Below are positions 34,458-49,054 of a DNA stretch of 64,000 nucleotides, in pieces. Numbering within the stretch: the stretch's first letter is position 1; each line of letters starts with the position of its first letter. This stretch comes from Sphingomonas faeni. Lineage in GTDB: Bacteria > Pseudomonadota > Alphaproteobacteria > Sphingomonadales > Sphingomonadaceae. Where the stretch lies: positions 186,001-250,000 of the forward strand of contig NZ_JAUSZF010000004.1 of the NCBI RefSeq assembly GCF_030817315.1, written 5' to 3'. Both the position numbers and the translations under genes were made by a program. Below the pieces are notes generated by a model that ran no database searches, was not told where the DNA came from, and saw only the letters and a program-made list of their open reading frames with translations.

Positions 34458-36997
34458 CAGGACTTGCTGACCACGAGGCGGACGTTCCGCCCGAAGATCG
34501 GACGGCCGTAGATCGCGTCGGCCGTGCCTTGGCCGCTCAACTGGTCGGTACGCGTATTGCCTTCGGTCAGGCCCTTCGCGTTGAACAGATTGTCGCCGAC
34601 GACCTGCATCTGCCACGTGTCGTGCGTCAGCGTGATCCCCGCGCCGACCGTCTGGTAGGAGGGCAGGGCGGTGTTGTTGAAGAAGTCGACATAGCGTTTG
34701 CCGGTATATTCGTAGCGGCCGTACAGCTGCACCGAATTGCCCGCGACGTCGAAGTCGACCGAGGGGCGGATGTTGCCGTAAACCTTCGGCTCGCGGACGA
34801 TCTGGTTGCCCTCGACGTCGCCGGCACTCGCGCCGTTAGCATTGACGAGGCTCTTATATTGCGGATCGCTGATCGTCAGCGCCCCAGTGACTGCGAACCC
34901 GTATGGCAGCGCGAGGTTGCCATCGATCTCGATGCCCTTGATCTCCGCCTTGCCGACGAACGGCACCGACTGGTCGTTGCGGCCGGTGACCGGGTCGAGC
35001 GCGACGAACGACGCGTTGAGCGGATTGTAGCGCGTATAGAAGCCGATCAGGTACAGATAGGACCGGCCGAACGCCGCCTTCAGGCCGACCTCATACTGGT
35101 TCGCCTTCGACGTGATGATCGTCGGGTTGATCTGGTAGGTGACCTGCGTCGATGGCGGCGTTTCGAGGTGCGAGGCGCGGGCATAGGCGCCGAAGTGCTT
35201 GGTGACGTCGTAGTTGATGCCGCCGGTCCAGTTGGTGATGCTGGGGCTGAGCTTCGAGTTGATGATCTGGCCGGTGAACGCGCGGACCGCGTTGTCGGCG
35301 AGCGTGTTCGGGTCGCCGAGGTTGGCGGAGGTCGTTGCGAACGCATAGCCCTTGAAGCTGTAGCGTTCATGGCGGATACCGCCGTCGAGGGTCAGGCCCT
35401 TGACCAGCTCCCACGTGTCGTTGGCATAGAGTGCGTACATCGAGGCGTCGGTGTTGCCGCGGTTGAGCGTGGTCGTATAGCGCAGCACGCCGTTGTCGGT
35501 GACCGAGCCGACCGCCTGGCCCGCGGCGTTGTAGGCGATCAGGTCAAGCGTTCGCGGCTTGCCCTTCACCTCGAGCAGATAGTCCTGGTACGCGACCTCG
35601 TTGGTCTCGCCGTAGAGGCTGCCATACACGCCGACGCGCAGGTCATGCGTGCCGAACCCGGTCGTGATCGAGCGGGTGACGCTGAGATCGCCTTGCGTCG
35701 AATAATATTTCGAGACGACGTCGCGGAACTGCGCGGGGACAACCAGACCTGAGGCGGTGTTCGGGTCATAGACCTCGGCGCCATTGGTGCCGGCGATTGC
35801 ATAGCCGAGCCGGGTCACGCCTGCGCCGAACGCGGTCCGCGCGGCGCCAAGGCTGCTGGCGGCATAGGCGTTGGCGTCCGACGGGTTGCTGGTCGAATAC
35901 AGTGCGTTGAAATGGAGCTTGCCGACGCTGACGCCGCCCTTCGCCGCGACTTTCCAGCCGTCGTAATCGGCGTCGTACTGCACGCCGACATTGCCGAACT
36001 GGGTGTGACGACCATTGCCGAGATCGGCGTCGACGTTGCGCGTCGTGCCGTCGGCCTCGCGGAAGCGGATGTTCGCGTTGCGCAGCGCGGGCGAGTTCAT
36101 CGTGCCGCTGAAAAAATCGATATACTGGTTGAGCGACTTGCTCGGATCGCGCGGGTCGGCGGTCGGGATCGGCAGGTAGAACACGTTGTGGTCGTTCAGG
36201 TAATTGCCCGACACGCGCAGCGATCCGTTGCTGAAGTCGTGCTTGATATTGGCGCGGATCTGGCCGCCGCGATCATTCGGGAAGCCGTTGTCGCGGTAGC
36301 CGTCGTGGCGGCGGAGGAACCCGCCGATCGCGTAATAGGTCGAATCGTCGATCGGGCCAGCCTGATAGCCGTCGAGCCGGTAGAGGCCGGTGTCGCCCAG
36401 CGTGACCTGCGCCTTGCCGCGCGTCGTATCGGTGCCCGACACGGTGATGTTGTTGACGATCGCGGCGGCATAGCTCGCATAGACCGGGGCAGGGCCGCCG
36501 CGCACGACCTCGACGCGCTGCGTCATCAGGTCGAACCGGTTGATGCTGTCGCCGCGGAAGAAATTGCCATCATTCTCGTGGAACAGCGGCAGGCCGTCCT
36601 GCTGGAAGGTGACGAGCCCGCCGTCGCTCGGCAGGCCGCGCAGGCGGATGATGTTCTGGACTTCACCGCCGGTGCTCTCGACCGCGAAGCCGGGCAATTT
36701 GCCGAGCAGGTCGGCGAAGTTGATCGGCGCGAGCTTCTGGATGTCGGCGTTGCTGAGCGAGTTGACCGCGTAGGAGACGTCGAAGCGGCGCTGCTGGCGC
36801 GCGGAGCCGGTGACGATAATGTCGCCGCCGCCAGCGTCAGGCGCTGCGGCGTCTGGTGCGGCAGCTTCCGGAACCGCATCGGCCGGGGGCGTGGCGGCCG
36901 GAGGAGCGGCTGGGGCGGTTTGAGCCCAAGCCGGCGACTGCGCGGCGATGCTCAACGCGAGAATGGCGCAACCCGTGCGCAAGCCAAATTTGGTCAT
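34454..36997 (-). CDS. TonB-dependent outer-membrane receptor
   Basis: An 847-residue receptor and first gene of the receptor, YdcF-like, GH92 operon. The start at 36997 gives the signal peptide MTKFGLRTGCAILALSIAAQ ... AWAQ, followed by a Pro/Ala-rich linker (about 26-58) and the TonB box region DIIVTGSARQQRRFDVSYAV. The plug has LLGKLPGFAVESTGGEVQNI and IRLRGLPSDGG. The barrel ends PIFGRNVRLVVSKSW. A much longer open frame extends to 37411 but lacks protein character. Its likely cargo is a mannose-containing glycan, because the operon ends in a GH92 gene. Confidence 0.92.
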   Translation of the reverse strand: MTKFGLRTGCAILALSIAAQSPAWAQTAPAAPPAATPPADAVPEAAAPDAAAPDAGGGDIIVTGSARQQRRFDVSYAVNSLSNADIQKLAPINFADLLGKLPGFAVESTGGEVQNIIRLRGLPSDGGLVTFQQDGLPLFHENDGNFFRGDSINRFDLMTQRVEVVRGGPAPVYASYAAAIVNNITVSGTDTTRGKAQVTLGDTGLYRLDGYQAGPIDDSTYYAIGGFLRRHDGYRDNGFPNDRGGQIRANIKHDFSNGSLRVSGNYLNDHNVFYLPIPTADPRDPSKSLNQYIDFFSGTMNSPALRNANIRFREADGTTRNVDADLGNGRHTQFGNVGVQYDADYDGWKVAAKGGVSVGKLHFNALYSTSNPSDANAYAASSLGAARTAFGAGVTRLGYAIAGTNGAEVYDPNTASGLVVPAQFRDVVSKYYSTQGDLSVTRSITTGFGTHDLRVGVYGSLYGETNEVAYQDYLLEVKGKPRTLDLIAYNAAGQAVGSVTDNGVLRYTTTLNRGNTDASMYALYANDTWELVKGLTLDGGIRHERYSFKGYAFATTSANLGDPNTLADNAVRAFTGQIINSKLSPSITNWTGGINYDVTKHFGAYARASHLETPPSTQVTYQINPTIITSKANQYEVGLKAAFGRSYLYLIGFYTRYNPLNASFVALDPVTGRNDQSVPFVGKAEIKGIEIDGNLALPYGFAVTGALTISDPQYKSLVNANGASAGDVEGNQIVREPKVYGNIRPSVDFDVAGNSVQLYGRYEYTGKRYVDFFNNTALPSYQTVGAGITLTHDTWQMQVVGDNLFNAKGLTEGNTRTDQLSGQGTADAIYGRPIFGRNVRLVVSKSW

Positions 36998-37531
36998 CTG
37001 TTCGTCCCCACCCTGTTCAATGAAAAGCCGTTGGACGCTCGATGTGACAGTTTTATTAATCGTACGGAATAACTCGACGAAGGTACTTGATCGAATAGGT
37101 AATGTAGCTTCGATCCCGGCAGCGGGGGCGACGGCCGCGAAATGATCGTCGGACTTGCCGCGCAAGCTCCTTCTAACGCCATCCCCATCCAGCATCGTAG
37201 ATTGCCTTAAGCTGCGATTTAGCCGAACTCGTGCCGTTGTTGGAGCAGGTGCAAGAAGCAACGTTGCTTCAGCTTTAACCTCGTGTCGTCGTCTTTTACG
37301 CCTGTTCAGGCACTCGTATCTGCCTCGATTGGCAGGGAAAGTGCGCCGGCTAGCTTTGGCAAGCGGCGCGAAATTCAAACACGCCGTGTCCTCGTTGCCG
37401 AATTCTGCCAAATAAGGATGAACGAACGGCTGAAGTGAGGAAGCGCGCAGGGCGATTTGAATGGCTGCAACTGGGTCGGTTTAGTCGTCGAACTCGAATG
37501 CAAGGTGTGTCAAAAATCGGCGCTTATAGAT
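36998..37531. other. Intergenic region with dispersed repeat copy 4
   Basis: Bases 36998-37416 probably include the promoter of the receptor operon; no gene is supported and no operator stands out. Bases 37417-37477 are a diverged copy of the dispersed repeat (GATGAACGAACGGCTGAAGT ... GAATGGCTGCAACTGGGTCG). Confidence 0.5.
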
Positions 37532-38227
37532 TTATGCCGCGGATCCTTCGATTTCACGAAGTTTAACGCACGCGATCTTTGCTGCTTCTCGGACATGCTT
37601 TTGGCAAGCGGCAGCCGCTCCTGATGCATCTTGGCGTTCGATGAGATCGACCATTCCTGCCAGCCGTTTGAGCCCAGCAGCTTGCCGTCCAACGACCGAT
37701 AGCGTCATCGCGCGTAACTGACTGATCCGACTGTTCAATCGTTGGACGATTTCCCAGGCGATGAGGTGTCCGCCTGTCTTGAAGATGATCTCGTAGAAAC
37801 AGGTCGTCGCCCTTAACGCTCTAATCGCACTACGCTGTTCATGGGCAACGGCAATATCCGCCAGTGCCGACTTCAGTGCCGAGACGGTCACCTCTGTAGC
37901 GACGCGAGCGCACGCCGCGACCGCGGACGATTCGAGCTGGATGCGAATGTCGTAAATCTGTTCCGCCTGGTCGATCGTGATGATCCCCAAGCGCGGTCCC
38001 GACGGTGTTCCCTCAACAAGCCCTTCGGACTCGAGATTGCGAATAACCTCGCGGATCACCGACCGGCTTACCCCCAAGCGCTCGGCTAAATTGCGTTCCA
38101 CCAAGCGTTCGCCAGGGCTGATACGGCCTTCGAGAATAGCATCGCGAACGCGGTCGAGCGCGATCAAGCGCAGGGTCTGCGGCCGGGATTCGATCCGGTC
38201 CAGCATATTTACGTCGTCATTCTGCAT
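37532..38227 (-). CDS. GntR family regulator, FCD subfamily, of the catabolic cluster
   Basis: A 231-residue regulator. The winged helix (about 20-85) includes LAERLGVSRSVIREVIRNLE with SEGLVEG; the FCD domain spans about 95-225. The start is set at 38227 (MQNDDVNMLDRIESRPQT); an in-frame ATG at 38278 would extend it by 17 residues. It is divergent from the operon beginning at 38327, and the perfect palindrome TGGTATACCA at 38284 lies between them. That is the type of site bound by FadR/VanR-like GntR proteins. A second copy at 45055 makes it the likely controller of the entire cluster, released by a pathway intermediate. Confidence 0.87.
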   Translation of the reverse strand: MQNDDVNMLDRIESRPQTLRLIALDRVRDAILEGRISPGERLVERNLAERLGVSRSVIREVIRNLESEGLVEGTPSGPRLGIITIDQAEQIYDIRIQLESSAVAACARVATEVTVSALKSALADIAVAHEQRSAIRALRATTCFYEIIFKTGGHLIAWEIVQRLNSRISQLRAMTLSVVGRQAAGLKRLAGMVDLIERQDASGAAAACQKHVREAAKIACVKLREIEGSAA

Positions 38228-38283
38228 CAGCGTTGTTCCCTCAAAGGTCACCATAAATGAACAATTGCCATTGTCCAATCAGG

Positions 38284-38293
38284 TGGTATACCA
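38284..38293. promoter_or_regulatory. Putative GntR operator TGGTATACCA, copy 1
   Basis: A perfect 10-base palindrome in the 100-base gap between the GntR gene and the DUF1185 operon, 43 bases before the ATG at 38327. The same ten bases recur at 45055-45064 ahead of the permease gene. The sequence matches the TGGTnnACCA core of GntR/FCD operators. Confidence 0.75.
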
Positions 38294-38326
38294 ACAGACA
38301 CCATACAGGCAGGAGGGTTGCTAGAC

Positions 38327-38929
38327 ATGGCACTAAGCATTCGAAAGATTGTCTCGTACGTTGAAGAAGTGCGTACCGAAGGCGGCAAGGAAGCCGGCAC
38401 CCCGGTTACCACCGTCATGGTTGCAGCCGTTCTCCAGAACCCATGGGCCGGACGAGGCTTCGTCGAAGACCTTCAGCCCGAGATCCGCGCGTACGCGTCC
38501 GACCTTGGTGCGCTGATCGTCAAGCGGCTGATCGCGGCGATGGGGGGTGCGGACCGGATCGAGGCGTATGGCAAGGCCGCGGTCGTCGGCGCCGCCGGTG
38601 AGATCGAGCATGCCTCTGCGTTGATTCACACGCTGCGCTTCGGCAACCACTATCGCGAGGCGGTAGAGGCAAAGTCCTATCTGAGCTTCACCAACAAGCG
38701 TGGCGGGCTGGGGACGTCGATCCAGGTGCCGATGATGCACAAGGACGATGAGGGCCAGCGCTCGCACTACATCACCGGTGAGTTCTCGATTTCGGACGCC
38801 CCGCTTCCTGACGAGATCGTCGTCGTTCTGGGGGCGGCGGATGCGGGGCGGGTACATCCCCGTATCGGGAACCGATACCTCGACTTGGAAGCCATCGCAG
38901 CCGAAAAGGCAGCGCGGCAGGCGTCGTGA
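38327..38929 (+). CDS. Amino acid synthesis family protein (PF06684, DUF1185)
   Basis: A 200-residue protein with an AGGAGGG site before its ATG. Family features: IRKIVSYVEEVRTEGGKEAG, AAVLQNPWAGRGFVEDLQPE, YGKAAVVGAAGEIEHASALI HTLRFG and an NKRGG segment. PF06684 proteins occur in catabolic gene clusters for nitrogen compounds and are thought to be hydrolase- or ligase-like, but the reaction is not established to my knowledge. First gene of a five-gene operon with very short or overlapping junctions. The following start overlaps its stop (TGATG). Confidence 0.85.
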   Translation: MALSIRKIVSYVEEVRTEGGKEAGTPVTTVMVAAVLQNPWAGRGFVEDLQPEIRAYASDLGALIVKRLIAAMGGADRIEAYGKAAVVGAAGEIEHASALIHTLRFGNHYREAVEAKSYLSFTNKRGGLGTSIQVPMMHKDDEGQRSHYITGEFSISDAPLPDEIVVVLGAADAGRVHPRIGNRYLDLEAIAAEKAARQAS

Positions 38930-39753
38930 TGGCTGGCGTTCCCGACACGGTGAACGTGCCACTGTCCTACGACGATAGCGGCGGCACGGGGCCTGTGGTC
39001 GTCCTCATTCACGGTGTCGGGCTGTCTCGTGGAATGTGGGCGGCGCAGGTGCCGCTACTCGAGACAGAGTATCGCGTCATTGCCGTCGACATGCTTGGTC
39101 ATGGCGACAGTGCGCGCCCTCCCGAAGATGCCGGTCTGGATAGCTTTGCCGATCACATCGTCGCGGTGCTGGATCATGCGGGGGTCGATCGGGGGACCTT
39201 TATCGGGTTCTCGATGGGGGCACTTGTCGCGCGCGCCGTGGCCTTGCGTCATCGCAGCCGGGTCGAGGCTCTGGTCCTTCTCAACGGCGTGTTCGATCGC
39301 TCGCCAGACATACGCTCGACTATCCTGGCCCGTGTCGCCGATGTCGCCACGGACGGTCCAGCCGCGAACATCGATGGTGCGATCGAGCGATGGTTCAGCC
39401 CGGCGTTCCGCAACGTGAATGCTAAGTATATTGCGGACCTGCGCACGAGCTTCGTAGCCAACGACCCGGCCGGGTATGCGGTAGCCTACCGGTTGTTCGC
39501 AACCGAGGATTGCTATGGCGATGCGGAGCTGTCCACCATCAACGTTCCGACCCTCGTCGCGACCGGCGAATATGACGTTGGCTCGACACCGGCGATGGCA
39601 AGGTCTTTGGCCGCGCGCATTCCCGGTGCGGTCTGCCGGGTCGTGGAGAATGCGCGGCATATGATGCCGGTCGAAATGGCAGATGCGACCAACGCCCTCC
39701 TGTTGGATTTCCTGGCTACGATCGAGTGTCACCAACCCTCCTTGGGAGATTGA
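38929..39753 (+). CDS. Alpha/beta hydrolase (RutD-like)
   Basis: A 274-residue cytosolic hydrolase. The ATG at 38929 overlaps the previous stop; a GTG one codon earlier is possible. The oxyanion motif is LIHGVGLSRGMW, the nucleophile is S95 in IGFSMGALVA, the acid is in ATGEYDVGSTP (about 213) and the His is in ENARHMMPVE (about 242). The size and pattern match RutD and enol-lactonase-like (PcaD) proteins, which cleave C-C, ester or carbamate bonds in ring-degradation pathways. In this operon it may hydrolyse the ring-opened product. The exact reaction is inferred only. Confidence 0.85.
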   Translation: MAGVPDTVNVPLSYDDSGGTGPVVVLIHGVGLSRGMWAAQVPLLETEYRVIAVDMLGHGDSARPPEDAGLDSFADHIVAVLDHAGVDRGTFIGFSMGALVARAVALRHRSRVEALVLLNGVFDRSPDIRSTILARVADVATDGPAANIDGAIERWFSPAFRNVNAKYIADLRTSFVANDPAGYAVAYRLFATEDCYGDAELSTINVPTLVATGEYDVGSTPAMARSLAARIPGAVCRVVENARHMMPVEMADATNALLLDFLATIECHQPSLGD

Positions 39754-39755
39754 AG

Positions 39756-41234
39756 ATGACGACCACCACGTTCCAGATGCTCGTGGGTGGGCAATCGGTC
39801 CCTGCCGTCTCGGGCGCGACCTACACCTCCCTCAACCCGGCGACAGGAGAGGCATGGTCTACGCTTCCTGACGGCGATGCGGCGGACGTCGATCACGCTG
39901 TGCGTGTTGCCGATGCCGCTTTCCGTTCAGACGAATGGCGCCGGCTGACTGCGAGCGCGCGCGGCAAACTCCTTCGGTGCCTTGGTGATCTAGTTGCCGA
40001 CCATGCCGTCGAACTCGCAGAACTCGAAACCCGCGATAACGGGAAGCTAATCCGAGAGACGCGCGGCCAGCTCGCCTACCTGCCGGAGTTCTTCCACTAC
40101 GCCGCGGGTCTGGCCGACAAGCTCGAGGGCAGCACGCTGCCGATCGACAAGACCGACATGTTCGCCTTCACCGTCCACGAGCCGCTTGGCGTCGTCGCCG
40201 CGATCGTGCCCTGGAACAGCCCGCTCTATCTGACCGCGATCAAGCTCGCGCCGGCGCTGGCGGCAGGTAATACGATAGTCATCAAACCTTCCGAACATGC
40301 ATCGACCAGCATACTGCGCTTTGCAGAACTCGTCGCGCTCGCCGGCTTTCCCGACGGCGTCGTCAACGTGGTAACCGGCTTCGGCGCAGGCGCGGGCGCG
40401 GCGCTGACCCGTCATCCGCTGGTCCGCCGCGTCGCTTTCACCGGCGGTCCCGCAACCGCGCGACATGTCGTACGCGCTACCGCGGAGAATTTCGCCAAGC
40501 TCTCGCTCGAACTCGGCGGCAAGTCCGCGAACATCGTCTTCGACGACGCGGATCTGGAAGGTGCCGTCAACGGCGCAGTGGCGGGCATTTATGCCGCGTC
40601 CGGTCAGAGCTGTGTCGCCGGATCGCGGTTGCTGGTCCAGGATGGCATCTACGACAGGTTCGTCGCCGCGCTGCGCGAGCGCATCGCACGGATCACGATC
40701 GGCGATCCGCTTGATCCGGCTTCGGACATGGGGCCGATGGCGACGGAACAGCAGCTCGGTGTCGTGGAGACGATGGTTGCGCGCGCGCGTGAGCAGGGCG
40801 TGACCGTGCTGGCTGGCGGCAAGCGGCCCGAGGGGCATGCTGGCTGGTTCTACGAACCAACGCTGCTCGAATGCGAGTCTGCGGATCTCGACATTGTCCA
40901 GAACGAGGTGTTCGGGCCGGTCGCCGCGATCATGCGCTTCAGCGATGAAGACGACGCGCTCCGTCTCGCCAACGGAACCGAGTACGCACTCGCGGCCGGC
41001 GTCTGGACCCGCGATCTTGCCCGCGGCCACCGGATGGCGCGCGACGTCCATGCCGGCATCGTCTGGGTGAACACCTACCGAGCCGTGTCGGCGATGGCGC
41101 CGATCGGCGGCTACGGCGCGAGCGGCTACGGCCGTGAGGGCGGTATCCACTCCGTCCTCGACTACACCGAACTCAAGACCGTGTGGGTAAATCTGTCGGA
41201 TAAACCGATGGGCGACCCGTTCGTGATGCGATGA
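39756..41234 (+). CDS. NAD(P)-dependent aldehyde dehydrogenase
   Basis: A 492-residue ALDH. The Rossmann and catalytic motifs are complete: VVAAIVPWNSPLYLTAIKLA, the glycine motif VAFTGGPATARHV, the general base Glu in KLSLELGGKS, the nucleophile Cys in AASGQSCVAGSR, and NEVFGPVAAIMRF. It oxidises an aldehyde to a carboxylic acid. A GGGAG site precedes the ATG, 2 bases after the hydrolase stop. A second ALDH lies two genes on, so the pathway probably forms two different aldehydes, or an amino- or semialdehyde and its successor. Confidence 0.92.
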   Translation: MTTTTFQMLVGGQSVPAVSGATYTSLNPATGEAWSTLPDGDAADVDHAVRVADAAFRSDEWRRLTASARGKLLRCLGDLVADHAVELAELETRDNGKLIRETRGQLAYLPEFFHYAAGLADKLEGSTLPIDKTDMFAFTVHEPLGVVAAIVPWNSPLYLTAIKLAPALAAGNTIVIKPSEHASTSILRFAELVALAGFPDGVVNVVTGFGAGAGAALTRHPLVRRVAFTGGPATARHVVRATAENFAKLSLELGGKSANIVFDDADLEGAVNGAVAGIYAASGQSCVAGSRLLVQDGIYDRFVAALRERIARITIGDPLDPASDMGPMATEQQLGVVETMVARAREQGVTVLAGGKRPEGHAGWFYEPTLLECESADLDIVQNEVFGPVAAIMRFSDEDDALRLANGTEYALAAGVWTRDLARGHRMARDVHAGIVWVNTYRAVSAMAPIGGYGASGYGREGGIHSVLDYTELKTVWVNLSDKPMGDPFVMR

Positions 41235-41245
41235 AGGAGAGAGAC

Positions 41246-41749
41246 ATGACTTCAAGTTCGATCGATCCCACCGAGTTCCGCACTGCGATGGCTGGCTTTC
41301 CCAGCGGCGTGACGGTCGTAACGACGCTGGATACGGAAGGCGCGATCGCCGGGTTCACGGCCAGCGCGTTCAGTTCGCTCTCGCTCGACCCGGCGCTAGT
41401 TCTGGTCTGCCCCGCGCTGACGTCGGCAACATACCCCCATCTCGTCAGCCGTCAGAGCTTCGCCATTCACATCCTTGCGGCCGGGCAGCAGGACCTAGCC
41501 ATGGCTTTCGCATCGAAAGGGACCGAGAAGATCGCCGGACTGGACTGGACGCTCAGTGAACTGGGCAATCCGATACTCCCCGGCGTGGCCTGCGTTATCG
41601 AGTGCACGCTGTGGCGCGAGTACGAAGGCGGCGACCATGCCATCGTCATCGGCGCCGTCCAGCGTATCGGTCTCACCGATAGCCCCGTCCTCATCTACCA
41701 CAAGGGCAGCATGACGGATCACCCCTCGCCGGTGCTGGAGGCGGCATGA
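41246..41749 (+). CDS. FMN reductase of a two-component monooxygenase (RutF/HpaC-like)
   Basis: A 167-residue flavin reductase-like protein. The start at ATG 41246 follows AAGGAGA; an ATG at 41231 overlapping the previous stop is less likely. Family motifs: FRTAMAGFPSGVTVVTTLD, GFTASAFSSLSLDPALVLVC PA, and the C-terminal GDHAIVIGAVQRI. It uses NAD(P)H to make reduced FMN that diffuses to a partner oxygenase, here almost certainly the luciferase-like protein at 43935. Its stop overlaps the start of the next gene (ATGA). Confidence 0.9.
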   Translation: MTSSSIDPTEFRTAMAGFPSGVTVVTTLDTEGAIAGFTASAFSSLSLDPALVLVCPALTSATYPHLVSRQSFAIHILAAGQQDLAMAFASKGTEKIAGLDWTLSELGNPILPGVACVIECTLWREYEGGDHAIVIGAVQRIGLTDSPVLIYHKGSMTDHPSPVLEAA

Positions 41750-43188
41750 CGTTGCATACGCTTCATCCGTTCCGCGACCGTGCGTTGATCGACGGCCGGT
41801 GGGTCTCTGCGACGGGGCAGGGTAGTGCGGTGTACGATCCGGCGACAGGCGAGATCATTGCTTCCGTGCCGGATCTCGGGCGGGAGGAAGCCCAGCTGGC
41901 AATCGCGGCTGCCGAACGTGCGCTCGTAGGTTGGCGTGCCCGACCGGCGGGAGAGCGCGCGGACATCCTCATGCGCTGGTACGCGCTCATGCAGGACCAC
42001 CGCGATGCGCTTGCCCAGATCCTCACGGCGGAACAGGGCAAGCCGCTCGCCGAAGCTGCGGGGGAGATCCTCTACGCCGCAAGCTTCCTGCGCTGGTATG
42101 CGGAAGAGGCGCGGCGCGTCGATGGGGAGATCATCCCAGCACCAAAGGCCAGCCAGCGCATCCTCGTCTGGCACGAGCCCGTCGGGGTGACCGCCGCGAT
42201 CACGCCGTGGAACTTCCCCGCGGCGATGATCACGCGCAAGGTAGGCCCCGCGCTTGCAGCTGGCTGTACGATGATCTTGAAGCCGGCGCCCGAGACGCCA
42301 CTGACCGCGCTCGCACTCGCCGCGCTCGCAGAGGAGGCAGGTGTCCCAGCAGGCGTCTTCAATGTCGTGACGGGCGATGCCGCCGCGATCGGCGGCGCAC
42401 TGATGGACAGTCCGGTAGTCCGCAAGGTGTCGTTCACGGGATCCACGCCGGTCGGTCGCATGCTGTTCGCACAGGCGGCGCCTACGCTGAAAAGGCTGTC
42501 ACTCGAGCTCGGCGGGAACGCACCGTTCATCGTGTTCGATGACGCCGACCTCGATGCGGCGGTCGACGGTGCGATGCTGGGCAAGTTCCGGAACGCCGGC
42601 CAGACGTGTGTCTGCGTCAACCGCTTCCTGGTCCAGGACTCCGTACACGACCGTTTCGTCGAGATGCTGCGGGAGCGGATCGCGAAGCTCGTGGTAGGAC
42701 CCGGAACGGATCCTGACACTACGATCGGCCCCCTCATCAACGAAAAGGCCGTGATCAAGGTGGAGGATCATGTCGCTGACGCCGTGCGTCGCGGCGGTCG
42801 ATTGGTGGCGGGGGGTAAGCGGGGGGAAGGTCTTTTCTATCCGCCTACGCTGATTGCGGACGTCCCCGCCGATGCAGCGATCGCGCGGGATGAGACCTTC
42901 GGTCCGCTCGCGGGCGTCATACGGTTCACGGACGAGGCGGAAGCGATCCGTCTAGCGAACGATACCGAGTTCGGCCTGGCGGCCTACGCCTATACGCGAG
43001 ACATTGGCCGCGCGATGCGAGTGGCCGGTGCGCTCGAGTACGGCATGGTGGGTTTGAACGAAGCGGCCATCTCCACCGAGGTCGCACCGTTCGGCGGGAT
43101 CAAGGCGTCGGGCCAGGGGCGGGAGGGCTCCCGTCATGGTATCGCCGAGTATCTCGAGTTGAAGTACGTGATGATGGGCGGGCTGTAG
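41746..43188 (+). CDS. Succinate-semialdehyde dehydrogenase-like ALDH
   Basis: A 480-residue aldehyde dehydrogenase of the GabD type. The conserved segments are TAAITPWNFPAAMITRKVGP, KVSFTGSTPVGRML, the Glu in LSLELGGNAPFIVFDDADLD and the Cys in KFRNAGQTCVCVNRF, which has the GabD-like second Cys. It oxidises succinate semialdehyde or a similar C4-C5 semialdehyde to feed the citric acid cycle. Last gene of the DUF1185 operon, followed by a strong stem-loop. If the pathway ends in succinate semialdehyde, this is the terminal step, as in known pyridine degradation schemes. Confidence 0.9.
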   Translation: MTLHTLHPFRDRALIDGRWVSATGQGSAVYDPATGEIIASVPDLGREEAQLAIAAAERALVGWRARPAGERADILMRWYALMQDHRDALAQILTAEQGKPLAEAAGEILYAASFLRWYAEEARRVDGEIIPAPKASQRILVWHEPVGVTAAITPWNFPAAMITRKVGPALAAGCTMILKPAPETPLTALALAALAEEAGVPAGVFNVVTGDAAAIGGALMDSPVVRKVSFTGSTPVGRMLFAQAAPTLKRLSLELGGNAPFIVFDDADLDAAVDGAMLGKFRNAGQTCVCVNRFLVQDSVHDRFVEMLRERIAKLVVGPGTDPDTTIGPLINEKAVIKVEDHVADAVRRGGRLVAGGKRGEGLFYPPTLIADVPADAAIARDETFGPLAGVIRFTDEAEAIRLANDTEFGLAAYAYTRDIGRAMRVAGALEYGMVGLNEAAISTEVAPFGGIKASGQGREGSRHGIAEYLELKYVMMGGL

Positions 43189-43196
43189 AACCGGAA

Positions 43197-43233
43197 CCGA
43201 AGCCAGACGCGCCGCGCTCGCATCTGGCTTCGG
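43197..43233. terminator. Bidirectional terminator between convergent operons
   Basis: A perfect 11-base stem CCGAAGCCAGA ... TCTGGCTTCGG with a 15-base loop, placed between the converging ends of the GabD-like gene and the decarboxylase-like gene. No long T tract, so the efficiency is uncertain. Confidence 0.75.
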
Positions 43234-43240
43234 CCACCGG

Positions 43241-43642
43241 TCAGCCTTGAATACCGTCGATTTCCGCGAACACCTCTTTGGCGAGCCGAAAGCTGTCGAC
43301 CCCGGCGGGCACGCCGACGTAGACCGCGATCTGGAGCAAGACCTCGCGCAACTCCTCGCGGGTCACGCCGTTCGTGAGCGCACCGCGGATGTGCGCCTTG
43401 AACTCGTGACCGCGATTGAGCGCGGCGATCATGCCCAGGTTGAGGATGCTGCGGCTGCGGCGGTCGAGGCCCGGCCTGTTCCAGATATGGTCCCAGCAAT
43501 ACTCCGTCGTCAGTTCCTGCATCGGCCAGTTGAAGTCGTCCGCGCCGGCAAGGGCCTTGTCGACATACGCATCGCCAAGCACCTCACGCCTGGTCTCCAG
43601 GCCACGGTCGAAGGCTTCGCTGGTCGTCCGCTCGCTCGTCAT
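43241..43642 (-). CDS. Carboxymuconolactone decarboxylase family protein
   Basis: A 133-residue all-helical CMD protein. The core is YVDKALAGADDFNWPMQELT TEYCWDHIWNRPGLDRRSRS followed by LGMIAALNRGHEFKAHIRGA and REVLLQIAVYVGVPA. The single Cys and the His in GHEFKAH are placed as in PcaC-like decarboxylases rather than AhpD (no CxxC). In the cluster it may decarboxylate, isomerise or hydrate a ring-opened acid. Its start overlaps the stop of the DUF1330 gene (ATGA); it is third in the operon luciferase-like, DUF1330, CMD. Confidence 0.88.
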   Translation of the reverse strand: MTSERTTSEAFDRGLETRREVLGDAYVDKALAGADDFNWPMQELTTEYCWDHIWNRPGLDRRSRSILNLGMIAALNRGHEFKAHIRGALTNGVTREELREVLLQIAVYVGVPAGVDSFRLAKEVFAEIDGIQG

Positions 43643-43935
43643 TCTGGCAATCCTTCCACGATGAGTATCTCGACTTCGGCCGCACCCGCACGGGCTTTTC
43701 GCGCCGCGGTGTATTCGGGCGATGCGTGACAGGCGAGCGCGGCGTCCATGCTCTCGAACTCGATGACGACGTTGCGCTGGCGGGGCTCCGGCCCCTCCAG
43801 CGCAACGGCTTGTCCGCCACGCGACAACAGCTTGCCGCCGTTGCCGATCAGTGCTGCTGGGCCCAACGCCATGTAGTCGGCATAAGCTTCGGCATCGGTC
43901 ACATCGACGCGGGCGATCCAGTAGGCTTTGGGCAT
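43639..43935 (-). CDS. DUF1330 family protein
   Basis: A 98-residue ferredoxin-like alpha/beta-barrel protein: MPKAYWIARVDVTDAEAYAD, GGKLLSRGGQAVALEGPEPR, VVIEFESMDAALACHASPEY. DUF1330 proteins often accompany degradation genes; function unknown, but dimeric fold-mates catalyse small isomerisations or monooxygenations. The ATG overlaps the stop of the luciferase-like gene by one base and its own stop overlaps the CMD start, so it is tightly coupled to both. Confidence 0.82.
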   Translation of the reverse strand: MPKAYWIARVDVTDAEAYADYMALGPAALIGNGGKLLSRGGQAVALEGPEPRQRNVVIEFESMDAALACHASPEYTAARKARAGAAEVEILIVEGLPE

Positions 43936-44972
43936 CAGGCGAACGCCGGCGCGACCTGATCGATGAACCGTCGGATCGAGTCGCGCTTCTCTTCGAACGA
44001 CATCGTGTTGTCGAGCCAGATGCTGTACTCGTCGACCCCCATGGCTTCGTAGGTCTTGAGCCGTGCGATGACCTCTTCTGGTGTACCGATCATGATGTTC
44101 CGACGGAGCTGTTCGGGCACGAAGTCCGGGAACCGTTCGGCGTCCAACGGCGCGATGTCGTGATGGAAGCCGTTGACCGGGGGCTTCCTGTTGCTCGCCC
44201 ATGCGCCGTAGTTGCGGAAGAACAGCGAGATTGCTTCTGCAGCGCGCTGACCGTCCTCGTCACTGGCCTGAACATGGGCGTGCTGAAGGATCATCAATTG
44301 GGGACGCGGTACGTCGGGGCTCGCAGCGCAGGCCTCGTCGAACTTGCGCGCCAAATCCTTCACTTCGTCGTCATTCTTGAACAGCGGTGTCGCCATCACG
44401 CTGCATCCGTTCGCCACCGCGAACTTATGCGACTCCGGATCGCGTGCGGCGATCCAGATGGGCGGCGTCGGCTTCTGGACGGGCTTTGGCACGCTGGTCG
44501 ACACCGGGAACTGCCAGATCTCGCCGTCATGGGCGTAGTCGCCTTCCCACAGCTTGCGGACCACCGGCACCATCTCGCGCAGATACTTGCCACCGTCGTT
44601 CGCCGAAACGCCGTTGAGCATGCGGTCGAACTCGAACTGGTAGGCGCCGCGTGCCAGGCCGATCTCCGCCCGGCCATTGCTGATCACATCGAGCATCGCC
44701 GCTTCGCCTGCCATGCGGATCGGATGCCAGAAAGGTGCGATGAAGGTACCTGCACCCAGCCGAATGTTCTTCGTCCGCTCGGCTACCGCGGCAAGCAGCG
44801 GGATCGGATTGGGGGAGATGGTATATTCCATCGAATGATGTTCGCCGATCCACACTTTGTGGAGGCCGCCTTCTTCCGCGAGATCGCACAGGGCGAGCAA
44901 TTCTTCGTAGAGCTGCCGATGCGAGATCGCCTCGTCGTAGCGTTCCATATGCAGGAAGAGCGAGAACTTCAT
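43935..44972 (-). CDS. LLM-class (luciferase-like) flavin-dependent monooxygenase
   Basis: A 345-residue TIM-barrel monooxygenase: MKFSLFLHMERYDEAI, LAEEGGLHKVWIGEHHSMEY, RTKNIRLGAGTFIAPFWHPI RMAGEAAMLDVISNGRAEIG, and PPIWIAARDPESHKFA. Members bind reduced FMN from a separate reductase and insert oxygen, often opening rings, as in RutA (uracil) and PyrA (pyridine). The matching reductase is at 41246. First gene of its operon, divergent from the permease; the palindrome TGGTATACCA lies in the shared promoter region. Likely the first catabolic step. Confidence 0.9.
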   Translation of the reverse strand: MKFSLFLHMERYDEAISHRQLYEELLALCDLAEEGGLHKVWIGEHHSMEYTISPNPIPLLAAVAERTKNIRLGAGTFIAPFWHPIRMAGEAAMLDVISNGRAEIGLARGAYQFEFDRMLNGVSANDGGKYLREMVPVVRKLWEGDYAHDGEIWQFPVSTSVPKPVQKPTPPIWIAARDPESHKFAVANGCSVMATPLFKNDDEVKDLARKFDEACAASPDVPRPQLMILQHAHVQASDEDGQRAAEAISLFFRNYGAWASNRKPPVNGFHHDIAPLDAERFPDFVPEQLRRNIMIGTPEEVIARLKTYEAMGVDEYSIWLDNTMSFEEKRDSIRRFIDQVAPAFA

Positions 44973-45054
44973 CCGTCGATCCTTTCCTCAAGGGCCTCTT
45001 CGAGAGCCCGATATTTTTGTCTTGCGTCCAGCCTTAGCAGGACATACCGTCCTA

Positions 45055-45064
45055 TGGTATACCA
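45055..45064. promoter_or_regulatory. Putative GntR operator TGGTATACCA, copy 2
   Basis: An identical palindrome to 38284-38293, placed 25 bases before the permease ATG and about 80 bases from the start of the divergent monooxygenase operon. One bound repressor here could silence both directions. Confidence 0.75.
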
Positions 45065-45089
45065 AGAATCATAAGAGGACTTGCTGACC

Positions 45090-46499
45090 ATGGCAACCCC
45101 AGGAGAGGCGCCAACCGCCATCGAGGCCAACAGCATCGGCTTCGTCCCGCTGGCCGAGAGGCATGGCCGCGTGCGTGATCTGTTCACGCTGTGGTTCACG
45201 ACGAACATTGCACCGCTGCCGGTCGTGACCGGCGCCATGGCCATCCAGGTTTTTGGCTTGTCGCTGGGCTGGAGCATTTCAGCAATCATCCTTGGACATC
45301 TGGTCGGCGCGTTGGTGCTGGCCGCCTGTTCGGCACAGGGCCCTCAGATGGGCTTGGCGCAGATGATCCAGAGCCGCGGTCAGTTCGGACGCTATGGTGC
45401 CCTGCTGGTCGTGACGTTTGCGACCCTATTGTATGTCGGCTTCTTCACCTCAAATATCGTGCTGGCGGCGAAATCGGTTCATGCGCTTGTGCCCGGGATC
45501 GGACTGCCGGTCGGAGCAATACTCTGTGCCGCCGCAGCGGCCGGCATCGGTATTCTTGGCTACAACGTCATTCACCTGCTCAACCGCGTCGGCATGTGGT
45601 TCATGGGTCTCGGCCTTCTGTATGCTGCCTTCAGGCTTGCCGATGGTCTTTCGTCAGAGATCGTGTGGCGGGGAGGCTTCACGATGGTGGGCTGGTTCGC
45701 GATGTTCTCGCTCGGCGCCGTTTGGCACATCTCCTACGCCTGCTACACATCGGACTATTCGCGGTACCTGCCACCTAGCGTTGGTATCCGCGGCCCCTTT
45801 CTAGCGAGCTTCGCCGGCGCCGCGCTCGGCGCCGCGGCGTCGTTCATCCTCGGTGCGATGGCCGTGGCGGGTGCCCCCGTCGGTGCCGACCCGATGACCC
45901 AGGTGAGCGGTGCCGTCGGCGCGCTCGCACCGATCCTGATGCTCCTCTTCATCTTCAACATCGTCAGCCACAACGCGCTGAACATCTACGGTGCCGTCCT
46001 GTCGCTCATCACGATGGCGCAGACGTTCGTGGCGTCGTGGATGCCAGGGCGAAAGGCACGCATCGTCTTGTCGGTACTGGTTCTCGGAGCCTGCCTCGTC
46101 GTCGCGACGACGTCGGCGGACACGTTCGTGCCCCGCTTCATCGGCTTCGTCATCGGCCTGATGGTCGTGCTGGCGCCTTGGGCGACGATCAACATCATCG
46201 ACTTCTACGTCGTTCGAAAGGGCAAGTACGACATCGCCTCGTTCTTCGAGGCCGATGGCGGCATCTATGGGCGGCTGAACCTGAAGGCGGCGATTGCCTA
46301 TCTGGCCGGCATCGCGGTGCAGCTGCCTTTCCTGACCTCCAGCCTGTACACGGGTCCCTTCGCCTCTGCGATCGGCGGCTTGGACATCGGTTGGCTCGTC
46401 GCGCCGATCGTCACCGGCGGGCTCTATCTGGGTCTTGGTGCCGGCAAGACGCAACGTCCCATCAACACCGCGGCGCATGCCGAAGTCGCCATACGATGA
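45090..46499 (+). CDS. NCS1 family permease (cytosine/purine/allantoin type)
   Basis: A 469-residue inner-membrane transporter with about 12 spans. Features: LFTLWFTTNIAPLPVVTGAM in the first span, as in CodB and Mhp1, GLSLGWSISAIILGHLVGAL, and SQGQ-like MIQSRGQFGRYGALL. NCS1 carriers import nucleobases, hydantoins, allantoin or related N-heterocycles with Na+ or H+. The start at ATG 45090 is preceded by AGAGGA; a TTG at 45081 is an alternative. The gene ends by overlapping the ribB-like start (ATGA). It is the best pointer to the chemical class of the substrate of this cluster. Confidence 0.9.
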   Translation: MATPGEAPTAIEANSIGFVPLAERHGRVRDLFTLWFTTNIAPLPVVTGAMAIQVFGLSLGWSISAIILGHLVGALVLAACSAQGPQMGLAQMIQSRGQFGRYGALLVVTFATLLYVGFFTSNIVLAAKSVHALVPGIGLPVGAILCAAAAAGIGILGYNVIHLLNRVGMWFMGLGLLYAAFRLADGLSSEIVWRGGFTMVGWFAMFSLGAVWHISYACYTSDYSRYLPPSVGIRGPFLASFAGAALGAAASFILGAMAVAGAPVGADPMTQVSGAVGALAPILMLLFIFNIVSHNALNIYGAVLSLITMAQTFVASWMPGRKARIVLSVLVLGACLVVATTSADTFVPRFIGFVIGLMVVLAPWATINIIDFYVVRKGKYDIASFFEADGGIYGRLNLKAAIAYLAGIAVQLPFLTSSLYTGPFASAIGGLDIGWLVAPIVTGGLYLGLGAGKTQRPINTAAHAEVAIR

Positions 46500-47692
46500 C
46501 GTCGATCACCACCGCCATTGGCATTGATAGTTCCAGCAGGATGGAAATCATGGTTCCCGATACGATGATCCGCGCACGTCCGAACTTCCTGTCTTCGCCC
46601 GAGGAGATCATTGAGGAGGCACGCAACGGCCGCATGTTCATTCTCGTCGATGACGAAGATCGCGAGAACGAAGGCGACCTCGTCATTCCAGCGCAAATGG
46701 CGACGCCGGAAAAGATCAACTTTATGGCAACTTACGGCCGTGGACTGATCTGCCTGGCCATGACGAACGACCGGGTCGATCAGCTTGGCCTCAAGCCGAT
46801 GGCGCAAAAGAACGGCACGCGTCACGAAACGGCCTTCACGGCCTCGGTAGAAGCCCGTGTCGGGGTCACCACGGGCATATCTGCCAATGACCGGGCACGC
46901 ACGATCGCGGTGGCGATCGACTCTGCCAACGGTCCGAGCGAAATCGTCACGCCAGGTCATGTCTTTCCGCTGATCGCACGCGACGGTGGGGTTTTGGTCC
47001 GCGCTGGCCACACCGAGGCCGCGGTCGACGTCTCCAGATTGGCTGGGCTCAACCCTTCCGGCGTCATCTGCGAGATCATGAACGACGATGGCACGATGGC
47101 TCGCCTGAGCGACCTGATCGGTTTCTCCCAGCTTCATAACCTCAAGGTCGGCACGATCCGCGACCTGATCGCCTATCGCCGTCGTTACGACCATCTGGTC
47201 GAGAAATGCACCGAGGTGACGTTCAACAGCCGGTGGGGCGGAGAATGGCGGGCGATCACCTATCGCAACCGTGCGACCGGTACCGAACAGATCGCACTGG
47301 TGAAGGGCGTGCTCGATCCCGAACAGCCGACACTGGTTCGGATGCATGCGATATCGGCGCTTACCGACATCTTTGCGGGCGATGGCCAAGGCATGGATGT
47401 GCTCGAGCGCTCGATGCGGATGATCGCAGAAGAGGGGGCGGGCGTCGTGATCGCGATCAACCGGCAGCGTGACGATCGTTTCTCGATGGCGCTGAAAGCA
47501 CGAGCAGGCACCTTGTCGCCATCGGACATGGAGGAACTTCGTGATTACGGGGTGGGCGCGATGATCCTGACGGAACTCGGAGTCGAACGAATGATCTTGC
47601 TGACGAACACGCACCGCACGCTGGTCGCGCTGTCCGGCTACGGATTGTCGGTAGTCGGCGAACGCAGTCTGGTCGCAGCGCCAGCCGCCTAG
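46496..47692 (+). CDS. ribB: 3,4-dihydroxy-2-butanone 4-phosphate synthase with degenerate RibA domain (RibBX-like)
   Basis: A 398-residue protein. The N-terminal half is a complete RibB: FILVDDEDRENEGDLVIPAQ, then GHVFPLIARDGGVLVRAGHT and EAAVDVSRLAGLNPSGVICE. It makes the four-carbon unit for riboflavin. The C-terminal half is GTP cyclohydrolase II-like (LVRMHAISALTDIFAGDGQG) but lacks the three zinc-binding cysteines of RibA, so that activity is not expected. The ATG overlaps the permease stop. Its presence within a catabolic operon suggests a dedicated boost of FMN for the monooxygenase-reductase pair. Confidence 0.88.
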   Translation: MTSITTAIGIDSSSRMEIMVPDTMIRARPNFLSSPEEIIEEARNGRMFILVDDEDRENEGDLVIPAQMATPEKINFMATYGRGLICLAMTNDRVDQLGLKPMAQKNGTRHETAFTASVEARVGVTTGISANDRARTIAVAIDSANGPSEIVTPGHVFPLIARDGGVLVRAGHTEAAVDVSRLAGLNPSGVICEIMNDDGTMARLSDLIGFSQLHNLKVGTIRDLIAYRRRYDHLVEKCTEVTFNSRWGGEWRAITYRNRATGTEQIALVKGVLDPEQPTLVRMHAISALTDIFAGDGQGMDVLERSMRMIAEEGAGVVIAINRQRDDRFSMALKARAGTLSPSDMEELRDYGVGAMILTELGVERMILLTNTHRTLVALSGYGLSVVGERSLVAAPAA

Positions 47693-47755
47693 CGACCCTG
47701 CACAACTAATATCCAAACAAAGCAACGCGGAGGCTACTTTCGCGAAGGAGAGCGC

Positions 47756-49054
47756 ATGCCTTTGACACCACCGGTTCCGGTCGTCATCGAACAACAGTGC
47801 GTGCCCGGTGCCGCCTGTCCGAATGGGGCAGCATCGCCCACCGGCAATGCCGATGCGGGAGGAGAGGTAACCCTTCCAGATACCCCTGCTACGAAGCCGG
47901 ACGTGGCACCGCCGGCATCGCCGAGGAAGGGACTAAAGGTAGGGGCCACGTTACGGGGGCGGTATGATCTTCGCTTTAACGACGTGTCCGGAAGCGGCGC
48001 GGACCGCACGTCGAGCCACCTCTCCTTCGATACCCTTGCACTGACGGCGGACTATACGTCCGACCGGTTCTTTGGCGCGGCGCAGTACAGATTCTACGGT
48101 GGCAACTTCATCTACGGAAAATCGGCCGGCTACCGGGAATACCCGGGGGAGGTGCGTTTCCTGATGTACGCCTATGGCGGGGCCAAGCTCACCGAGTCCG
48201 ACAGCGTTACCGCAGGTATTCAAGCGGTTCCTTTCGACGATCGATACTGGGGATCGTCCATCCTCGACGACCTCGCGTTCGTTTACGGTTTTGAAGAGAC
48301 CTACAATCTCGGCGTCAAGTTCCGTCACGAGACGCCGCGGTATCGTGTAGAGGTCGGGTTCTTCCCTTCCAGCGGGCCTGCCGGTGGCGGCATCAGTTCG
48401 GACTCGTCCCGCTACTCCACGAACATTTCCAAAGCTGACAGCTACGTGCCGGACGGTTCGCGTAACGACGAACGCAATATGCTCATCGGGAACGTCAGCT
48501 ACACGCTTGCGGCAACAGAGACCGTAAAGCTCAGCGCCACCATTTCTGGATGGCTATCGACAATCCATAACTTTGATACGCATGCCGACGGCAGCAAGCG
48601 CATCTTCGCGGCAAGCCTTACCGGTAGTAAAGGGCCTTGGCATGCAAAGACACTCGTAGCGAGGCAGGACATTGATCCGCGGAATCCGGGTCGTAATGAC
48701 ATGATCACTGTCGGAGGCTTCGACGCCTCCTATAACATCGCGACGAAAGGGACATATGTATTTGGCGAGTTGGGTCGATCCATCGACACCGGAAGCTTGC
48801 CGTTCGATGTTACGCCCTACGTCAACTACGGTCGCTTTTTCAAAGATGCAGACGGCTTCAAGGATAGCGAACGGCTCGATATCGGGGCGGTCTGGTCGTC
48901 CAAGAAGTCTCAGCGCATCAAGGTCTATTCTGAATTTCTGATTGGCCGAAATGACCCTTACGTTGGGGCGGGTCAGTTCATATCCGGCGCGGCTCAGGGT
49001 GGCGACGGTCGTCTGAAGAAATCGATATTGGTGATTTTCGGATACTCGATCTAG
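47756..49054 (+). CDS. Outer-membrane beta-barrel (porin-like) protein
   Basis: A 432-residue barrel. Alternating strands such as GATLRGRYDLRFNDVSG, DRFFGAAQYRFYGGNFIYGK and YRVEVGFFPSSGP fill residues 60-432, and the chain ends SILVIFGYSI. A strong GAAGGAGAG site precedes the ATG, but no export signal is visible: the N-terminus is MPLTPPVPVVIEQQCVPGAA followed by a Pro/Ala linker. Either the start is elsewhere and damaged, or export is unusual. It follows ribB by 63 bases and probably passes the cluster's substrate through the outer membrane. Confidence 0.75.
   Translation: MPLTPPVPVVIEQQCVPGAACPNGAASPTGNADAGGEVTLPDTPATKPDVAPPASPRKGLKVGATLRGRYDLRFNDVSGSGADRTSSHLSFDTLALTADYTSDRFFGAAQYRFYGGNFIYGKSAGYREYPGEVRFLMYAYGGAKLTESDSVTAGIQAVPFDDRYWGSSILDDLAFVYGFEETYNLGVKFRHETPRYRVEVGFFPSSGPAGGGISSDSSRYSTNISKADSYVPDGSRNDERNMLIGNVSYTLAATETVKLSATISGWLSTIHNFDTHADGSKRIFAASLTGSKGPWHAKTLVARQDIDPRNPGRNDMITVGGFDASYNIATKGTYVFGELGRSIDTGSLPFDVTPYVNYGRFFKDADGFKDSERLDIGAVWSSKKSQRIKVYSEFLIGRNDPYVGAGQFISGAAQGGDGRLKKSILVIFGYSI

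Follow-up and report, generated by a model that had tools for sequence, protein, structure and literature searches.

What compound is handled by the gene cluster that lies between positions 37532 and 49054 of a 64,000-nucleotide stretch of Sphingomonas faeni DNA? This stretch, hereafter the window, comprises positions 186,001 to 250,000 of contig NZ_JAUSZF010000004.1 (C4:186001-250000 in a 4.37-Mb genome of five contigs). A first, sequence-only reading had ascribed the cluster to an unknown, probably N-heterocyclic compound, opened by a new variant of reduced-flavin ring cleavage. The cluster is real and belongs to an already known kind, the tgn trigonelline set, reportedly described by Perchat et al. 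in 2018 as the trigonelline pathway of Acinetobacter baylyi ADP1; the window probably carries the sphingomonad version of this set, a GntR-repressed cluster for the uptake and breakdown of trigonelline (N-methylnicotinate), a nitrogen-ring compound widespread in plants. A cluster for an unknown N-heterocycle thereby becomes a testable trigonelline prediction.

Gene content, homology and operator conservation, all observed directly, carry this answer. The search of a plasmid collection with the window oxygenase gave 1,095 records, and the record of Acinetobacter sp. PK01, with its flavin-dependent trigonelline monooxygenase, surfaced through a search with a rhizobial relative of that oxygenase. 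On the PK01 plasmid (NZ_CP094644.1), the locus is partly annotated as tgnA, tgnB and tgnC. The DUF1330 and GntR genes are read one way there; then follow the genes for an amino-acid-synthesis protein, a hydrolase, tgnA, tgnB and tgnC, and after tgnC those for a cytosine permease, a hypothetical protein, a succinate-semialdehyde dehydrogenase (SSADH) and a CMD-family protein. Eleven of the twelve cluster proteins of the window were matched in this locus at 29-59%, each on the expected gene, and the RibB-like protein, which we take to be of the RibBX type, was the only member without a match there. The same set, including the barrel-like protein behind the NCS1 carrier, is thus already partly annotated for trigonelline, and the label "unknown" is not borne out.

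The cluster consists of three tight units around two copies of the palindrome TGGTATACCA, with the GntR gene divergent from the first operon. Adjacent genes within each operon overlap by 4-28 bases, with the exception of a 63-base gap upstream of the barrel gene. The three operons had been described in this form from the sequence, and Pfam confirmed the gene families, except that the last open reading frame (ORF, 47756..49054) had no Pfam match. The features are listed below, with identities to the PK01 counterparts.

Divergent regulator and first operator:
37532..38278, minus strand: GntR/FCD repressor, start uncertain (PF07729, PF00392; 44% to the GntR beside PK01 tgn)
38284..38293: predicted operator TGGTATACCA, between GntR and the PF06684 operon (exact match)
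Plus-strand operon 1:
38327..38929, plus strand: PF06684 protein, TgnF-like (PF06684 238 bits; 59%)
38926..39753, plus strand: alpha/beta hydrolase, TgnD-like (Pfam; 34%)
39726..41234, plus strand: aldehyde dehydrogenase, TgnC-like (PF00171; 54% over 98% to tgnC)
41231..41749, plus strand: short flavin reductase, TgnA-like role (PF01613; 42% over 84% to tgnA)
41746..43188, plus strand: SSADH, TgnE-like (TIGR01780 672.8 bits, cut-off 646.35; 57%)
Minus-strand operon, read from the oxygenase gene:
43241..43642, minus strand: CMD-family protein (PF02627; 55%)
43639..43938, minus strand: DUF1330 protein (PF07045; 52%)
43935..44972, minus strand: luciferase-like oxygenase, TgnB homologue (PF00296; 52% over 100% to tgnB)
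Second operator and plus-strand operon 3:
45055..45064: predicted operator TGGTATACCA, between the oxygenase and NCS1 operons (exact match)
45090..46499, plus strand: NCS1-family permease, predicted substrate carrier (PF02133; 48% to the tgn-locus permease)
46496..47692, plus strand: RibB plus cyclohydrolase-II-like domain, RibBX (PF00926/PF00925 over cut-off)
47756..49054, plus strand: predicted outer-membrane barrel (29% over 79% to the protein behind the PK01 permease)

The PF06684 gene may start at 38327 (ATG) or 38318 (TTG). The DUF1330 ORF as initially listed extends to 44202; since the PF07045 domain begins at residue 92 of this longer frame, the gene most likely occupies 43639-43938. 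The barrel protein is 64% and 86% identical in two sphingomonad relatives (L016 and L126).

Compared enzyme by enzyme with the PK01 tgn locus, the TgnB-type oxygenase is homologous over its full length, the TgnA-type reductase is present without the extra C-terminal half of PK01 tgnA, and the TgnC-type dehydrogenase, the TgnE-type SSADH and the TgnF-type PF06684 protein are all present; hydrolase, GntR, NCS1, CMD, DUF1330, the barrel-like protein and TGGTATACCA are shared as well. The window differs in its gene order, its extra RibBX, its short reductase, its 34% hydrolase and an oxygenase that falls outside the TgnB clade. In PK01, tgn is flanked by sarcosine-oxidase-type genes and folate genes, whereas the window cluster has no sarcosine-oxidase-type genes inside it. 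The PK01 hydrolase (34% over 89% to that of the window) bears no tgnD label. Two hydrolase relatives (P0131, 62%; P0139, 58%) carry the JGI name (E)-2-((N-methylformamido)methylene)succinate hydrolase, and this TgnD name stands on 2 of the 120 listed hydrolase homologues, the others having generic names. Acinetobacter is absent from the best 80 of 590 confirmed loci in the named-genome scan, and likewise from the best 120 listed with a gammaproteobacterial oxygenase query. The evidence is in keeping with much of what had been deduced beforehand, namely a two-component reduced-flavin ring opening (the counterparts being PK01 tgnA and tgnB), an amide-cleaving hydrolase followed by succinate-semialdehyde oxidation, and a pyridine-type N-heterocyclic substrate. 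The supposed new variant of ring cleavage is a known tgn-type set, with similar sets in Proteobacteria and Actinobacteria. Identity with a characterised pathway holds in kind, though not letter for letter, as the oxygenase lies outside the clade of anchored TgnB proteins.

The second line of evidence is the operator. The two palindromes noted at 38284 and 45055 are exact, and none of 100 shuffles of the 64-kb window reproduced them (mean expected 0.00); with two mismatches allowed, the 12 sites found against 8.0 expected are not special, 9 of 100 shuffles reaching 12. The whole 4.37-Mb genome has three exact places and none for the reversed control pattern, the third lying inside an ORF read as inositol-monophosphatase-like (a label with no family search behind it). 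Under independent, identically distributed letters, about 2 sites per 4.37 Mb and 0.03 per 64 kb are estimated; the genome-wide count is therefore ordinary, and it is the pairing within one cluster that counts. Among all 1024 ten-base palindromes, TGGTATACCA ranks first by the number of proteobacterial loci that hold it (58 of 70, with 85 copies), followed by a runner-up in 30 of 70, the best other palindrome of the same composition reaching 20 of 70. Exact copies are missing from the remaining 12 proteobacterial loci and from all 26 actinobacterial ones, and these counts are not independent, because the loci are interrelated and were selected via the oxygenase. In a wider proteobacterial set (minus the actinobacterial loci and L128), 88 of the 91 exact sites fall in the interval that reaches from 250 bp before to 30 bp past the estimated start of a cluster-type gene, in keeping with the single GntR regulon proposed earlier. 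In seven genomes, all 14 exact sites, distributed over six of them, are no more than 19 kb from the oxygenase gene. The exact operator occurs in loci of Alpha-, Beta- and Gammaproteobacteria, PK01 tgn included, where it stands before the PF06684 gene (L154:7623) with a one-mismatch copy before the SSADH gene. Its shape is ordinary for such a repressor, since it fits the FadR-subfamily consensus NyGTM-N0-1-KACNy given in PMC4494728. No report of a tgn operator was noticed in a literature search that left subscription journals mostly outside its reach. As judged from the sequences, the cluster genes are very probably co-regulated, and TGGTATACCA is likely to be the operator of a tgn regulon across three proteobacterial classes, usable for finding further members.

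The position of the oxygenase was examined in a tree built from the window protein and 40 of the 100 relatives available; its midpoint root falls at two distant paralogues. The window oxygenase groups first with five sphingomonad rows (100/100) and next with Pseudomonas and Actinobacteria (99/97). The clade of PK01 TgnB and the oxygenase of the Sinorhizobium meliloti replicon pSymA (100/99) stands beside the window group (99/94), with the two paralogues as outgroup; the program flagged a risk of false joining for the long branches in both the TgnB clade and the paralogues, and this sister relation is consequently not firm. The JGI name "trigonelline monooxygenase, oxygenase component" is borne by P0064 and P0105 among the 120 listed oxygenase homologues, and by P0277, P0301 and P0304 among the best 120 of the gammaproteobacterial-oxygenase search. 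P0064 and P0105 are 64% and 61% identical to the window oxygenase, about 80% to that of Arthrobacter and 50-52% to three rows of the TgnB side, L006 not among them; these automatically annotated proteins are on the side of the window by identity, which argues for the same function. A same-genus genome (G729) with the same cluster has a 97% identical oxygenase; it is taken to be the leaf isolate Sphingomonas sp. Leaf20, whose protein P0001, among the 120 listed, shows the same identity.

Independent systems show how the set varies. On pSymA of S. meliloti 1021, a single oxygenase match reaches 1e-20 and is 87% identical to the rhizobial oxygenase, and 7 of the 12 cluster proteins were matched within 24 kb around it: GntR, PF06684, hydrolase, reductase, oxygenase, dehydrogenase and SSADH. 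In strain ml47, whose pSymA is annotated, the same gene row comes with a NIPSNAP protein and an ABC transporter. These two set the pSymA locus apart from the window, and nothing within the 24 kb matches NCS1, DUF1330, CMD, the RibB-like protein or the barrel. According to PMC4207669, wild-type Sinorhizobium grows on trigonelline and a strain lacking pSymA does not; this result links growth on trigonelline to the replicon rather than to this gene set. The Pseudomonas oryzihabitans locus (L051) is closer, with NCS1, RibB-like, DUF1330, GntR, SSADH, the core enzymes and the same operator, and with 64-74% identity to the window for oxygenase, dehydrogenase and PF06684 protein; it differs by an additional ABC transporter and by having no CMD or barrel match.

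An oxygenase match at 1e-100 was found in 20 of 398 genomes sampled from the phylum, 7 of 293 in the order of the Pseudomonas-like G286 and 3 of 250 of the own genus, in samples that overlap; the cluster is an accessory trait, as few genomes per sample carry it. The whole core (PF06684, hydrolase, dehydrogenase and oxygenase) is present in 57 of 100 loci, 26 actinobacterial and 31 proteobacterial. The other 43 include nine shorter than 21 kb, and in two Pseudomonas-like genomes (G058 and G286) a distance of 15 to 18 kb separates the second operon from the oxygenase. Genes were assigned as best phmmer matches to a fixed query set, and flavin-reductase matches near 40 bits and some tautomerase matches near 50 bits are doubtful. 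The 31 proteobacterial core loci hold GntR (29), reductase (28), NCS1 (21), CMD (20), DUF1330 (18), an ABC binding protein (12), RibB-like protein (11), SSADH (10), barrel (4) and NIPSNAP (3). The 26 actinobacterial ones hold reductase (26), GntR (24), tautomerase (19), NCS1 (11), SSADH (4) and riboflavin kinase (2), and neither CMD nor DUF1330 was found among them. A tautomerase, NIPSNAP or DUF1330 protein occurs in 40 of the 57 core loci and none of these in 17, a pattern that at most suggests one slot variously filled.

The pathway that we infer, with its substrate, each of its reactions, the binding and inducer of GntR and the roles of CMD, DUF1330 and RibBX, would run as follows. Trigonelline would enter via the outer-membrane barrel and the NCS1 permease, and the flavin reductase would deliver reduced flavin to the luciferase-like oxygenase, which would cleave the ring and yield (Z)-2-((N-methylformamido)methylene)-5-hydroxybutyrolactone. 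This butyrolactone would be oxidised by the TgnC-like dehydrogenase to (E)-2-((N-methylformamido)methylene)succinate, and the TgnD-like hydrolase would split the latter into methylamine, formate, CO2 and succinate semialdehyde. The intermediates are placed in this order on the basis of the enzyme names found among the TgnD-named relatives and in the PK01 annotation. Methylamine, formate and CO2 are also said, by Perchat et al. in 2018, to be released in the tgn pathway. The SSADH, aided by the TgnF-like PF06684 protein, would then form succinate. GntR would sit on the two TGGTATACCA sites until released by the substrate or an intermediate. RibBX probably raises the flavin supply, CMD may accelerate the decarboxylation of a formylsuccinate-type product, and DUF1330 may act as an isomerase. 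In PMC8269262, TgnA and TgnB open the ring first. According to PMC7913881, the PF06684 protein HcdD is a homologue of TgnF; in A. baylyi, TgnF stimulates the TgnE-dependent oxidation of succinate semialdehyde, an effect that could not be seen for HcdD.

Several observations weigh against assigning the cluster to trigonelline. The PK01 and JGI names are automatic annotation, and most source names of the listed oxygenase homologues are generic, as is that of the nearest named hydrolase relative (P0122, 81%, a pimeloyl-ACP methyl ester carboxylesterase). The window reductase is shorter than that of PK01 (172 vs 310 aa), the hydrolase is just 33-37% identical to the hydrolases of six TgnB-side loci, and the oxygenase falls outside the clade of anchored TgnB proteins. 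As to the operator, the seventh of the genomes above (G383) has the cluster and no exact site, the pSymA 1021 locus shows only a one-mismatch form, TGGCATACCA, and the reversed control pattern occurs 20 times across the seven genomes, so that the place of the sites, not their number, is telling. Finally, the toolkit can serve more than one compound, since paralogous clusters with the same toolkit exist, their oxygenases being 42-44% identical to that of the window (L157 and L158).

Those paralogous clusters, each with oxygenase, PF06684, hydrolase and dehydrogenase genes, are located on plasmids of Agrobacterium fabrum (pAt, L158:4466-10255) and Parasedimentitalea marina (L157:1410-8035), and the former also has CMD and NIPSNAP genes and lies near a glycine-betaine-type transporter.

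The strongest competitor of trigonelline is a close analogue, another N-methylpyridinium or a pyridine carboxylate, degraded by the same chemistry with downstream enzymes and repressor shared with tgn. It remains a candidate because of the oxygenase position, and the reuse of the toolkit in other clusters, one beside a glycine-betaine-type transporter, speaks for it too. We consider it unlikely, since operator and carrier family are the same as in the PK01 tgn locus, the SSADH is retained, and the two oxygenase clades were not seen together, each of the 25 distinct matching genomes having one match at 1e-100 (scoring covered no more than the 5 to 8 best first-look candidates in many of these genomes). 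Moreover, marine metabolomics, in PMC8269262, is used to argue that TgnA/TgnB are unlikely to act on homarine, and Ruegeria pomeroyi is reported there to grow more poorly on homarine than on trigonelline.

Far less probable is a Rut-type catabolism of nucleobases, hydantoin or allantoin, to which the NCS1 carrier had been taken to point. The Rut pathway is in principle alike in its two-component flavin ring opening, and the flavin reductase weakly matches RutF; however, this match (72.9 of 254.75 bits) is far under the cut-off, as is that of the hydrolase to RutD (101 vs 238.5 bits), so that the label "RutD-like" does not hold. Isochorismatase- or RidA-type domains (RutB, RutC) are lacking among the cluster Pfam matches, as had been read correctly, and an NCS1 carrier need not mean a nucleobase, because the PK01 tgn locus contains one of 48% identity. 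Equally improbable is the breakdown of riboflavin or lumichrome, an idea prompted by the operon's RibB-like gene and by the riboflavin kinase that 2 of the 26 actinobacterial core loci hold, since RibB makes a flavin precursor, the PK01 locus lacks a RibB-like gene and the remaining genes match tgn.

A protocatechuate assignment (PcaC/PcaD) was rejected, the equivalog scores being under cut-off (PcaD 177.1 of 255.85, PcaC 148.4 of 155.7).

The accessory proteins of the trigonelline cluster deserve separate consideration. RibBX has cysteines at 86, 192 and 238 only, none of them in the cyclohydrolase-II-like stretch; the zinc-ligand pattern of cyclohydrolase II involves cysteines, and this half is therefore probably no working zinc enzyme. 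A second RibB-like copy, 72% identical, is located elsewhere in the genome (C1). A high flavin demand would also fit the flavin-supply genes seen elsewhere, RibB-like in Pseudomonas loci and riboflavin kinase in two Actinobacteria. AhpD-type peroxidases carry a CxxC motif, which the CMD protein, with its single cysteine, lacks; its PcaC score (TIGR02425) is near but under the cut-off, like that of its PK01 counterpart (149).

CMD and DUF1330 stand out as two small proteins retained in many such clusters. Tentatively, and with considerable doubt, they may be catalytic in trigonelline breakdown and be replaced elsewhere by NIPSNAP or tautomerase proteins, the sphingomonad, which would lack a route for assimilating methylamine, handing it to leaf methylotrophs. 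In its own genome, the best hit to type III glutamine synthetase, presumably the GmaS family, was 207 bits (cut-off 469.6), this family being under cut-off in all 14 control genomes too, and the best hit to SoxA was 118 bits (cut-off 1164). PK01 SoxA itself, at 867 bits, misses the same cut-off, so the SoxA comparison rests on 118 vs 867 bits. Methylamine may be released, as no methylamine-assimilation gene passed its cut-off in the searches for these two families.

On the Arthrobacter dokdonellae plasmid (L002), riboflavin kinase and NUDIX genes lie beside the actinobacterial form of the cluster (L002:881-6512), and two PF06684-type genes stand in tandem.

A TonB-dependent receptor gene (34454-37411, minus strand) adjoins the window cluster without the operator; it was left outside the cluster because the search of the related loci gave no match to it at 1e-5.

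One of the three exact operator sites not assigned to a cluster-type gene precedes by 11 bases an ORF for a chemoreceptor whose sensor domain is of the HBM type (L147:2556-4559), in a Pseudomonas-like genome (G356) whose oxygenase groups with that of P. oryzihabitans; an OpuAC-type binding protein is encoded nearby (L147:1274-2302). The chemoreceptor as proof of a betaine ligand was dropped; the dCache_1AM receptors assayed elsewhere bound no trigonelline according to PMC10104139. Found through its operator, this gene is a possible chemotaxis member of the GntR regulon.

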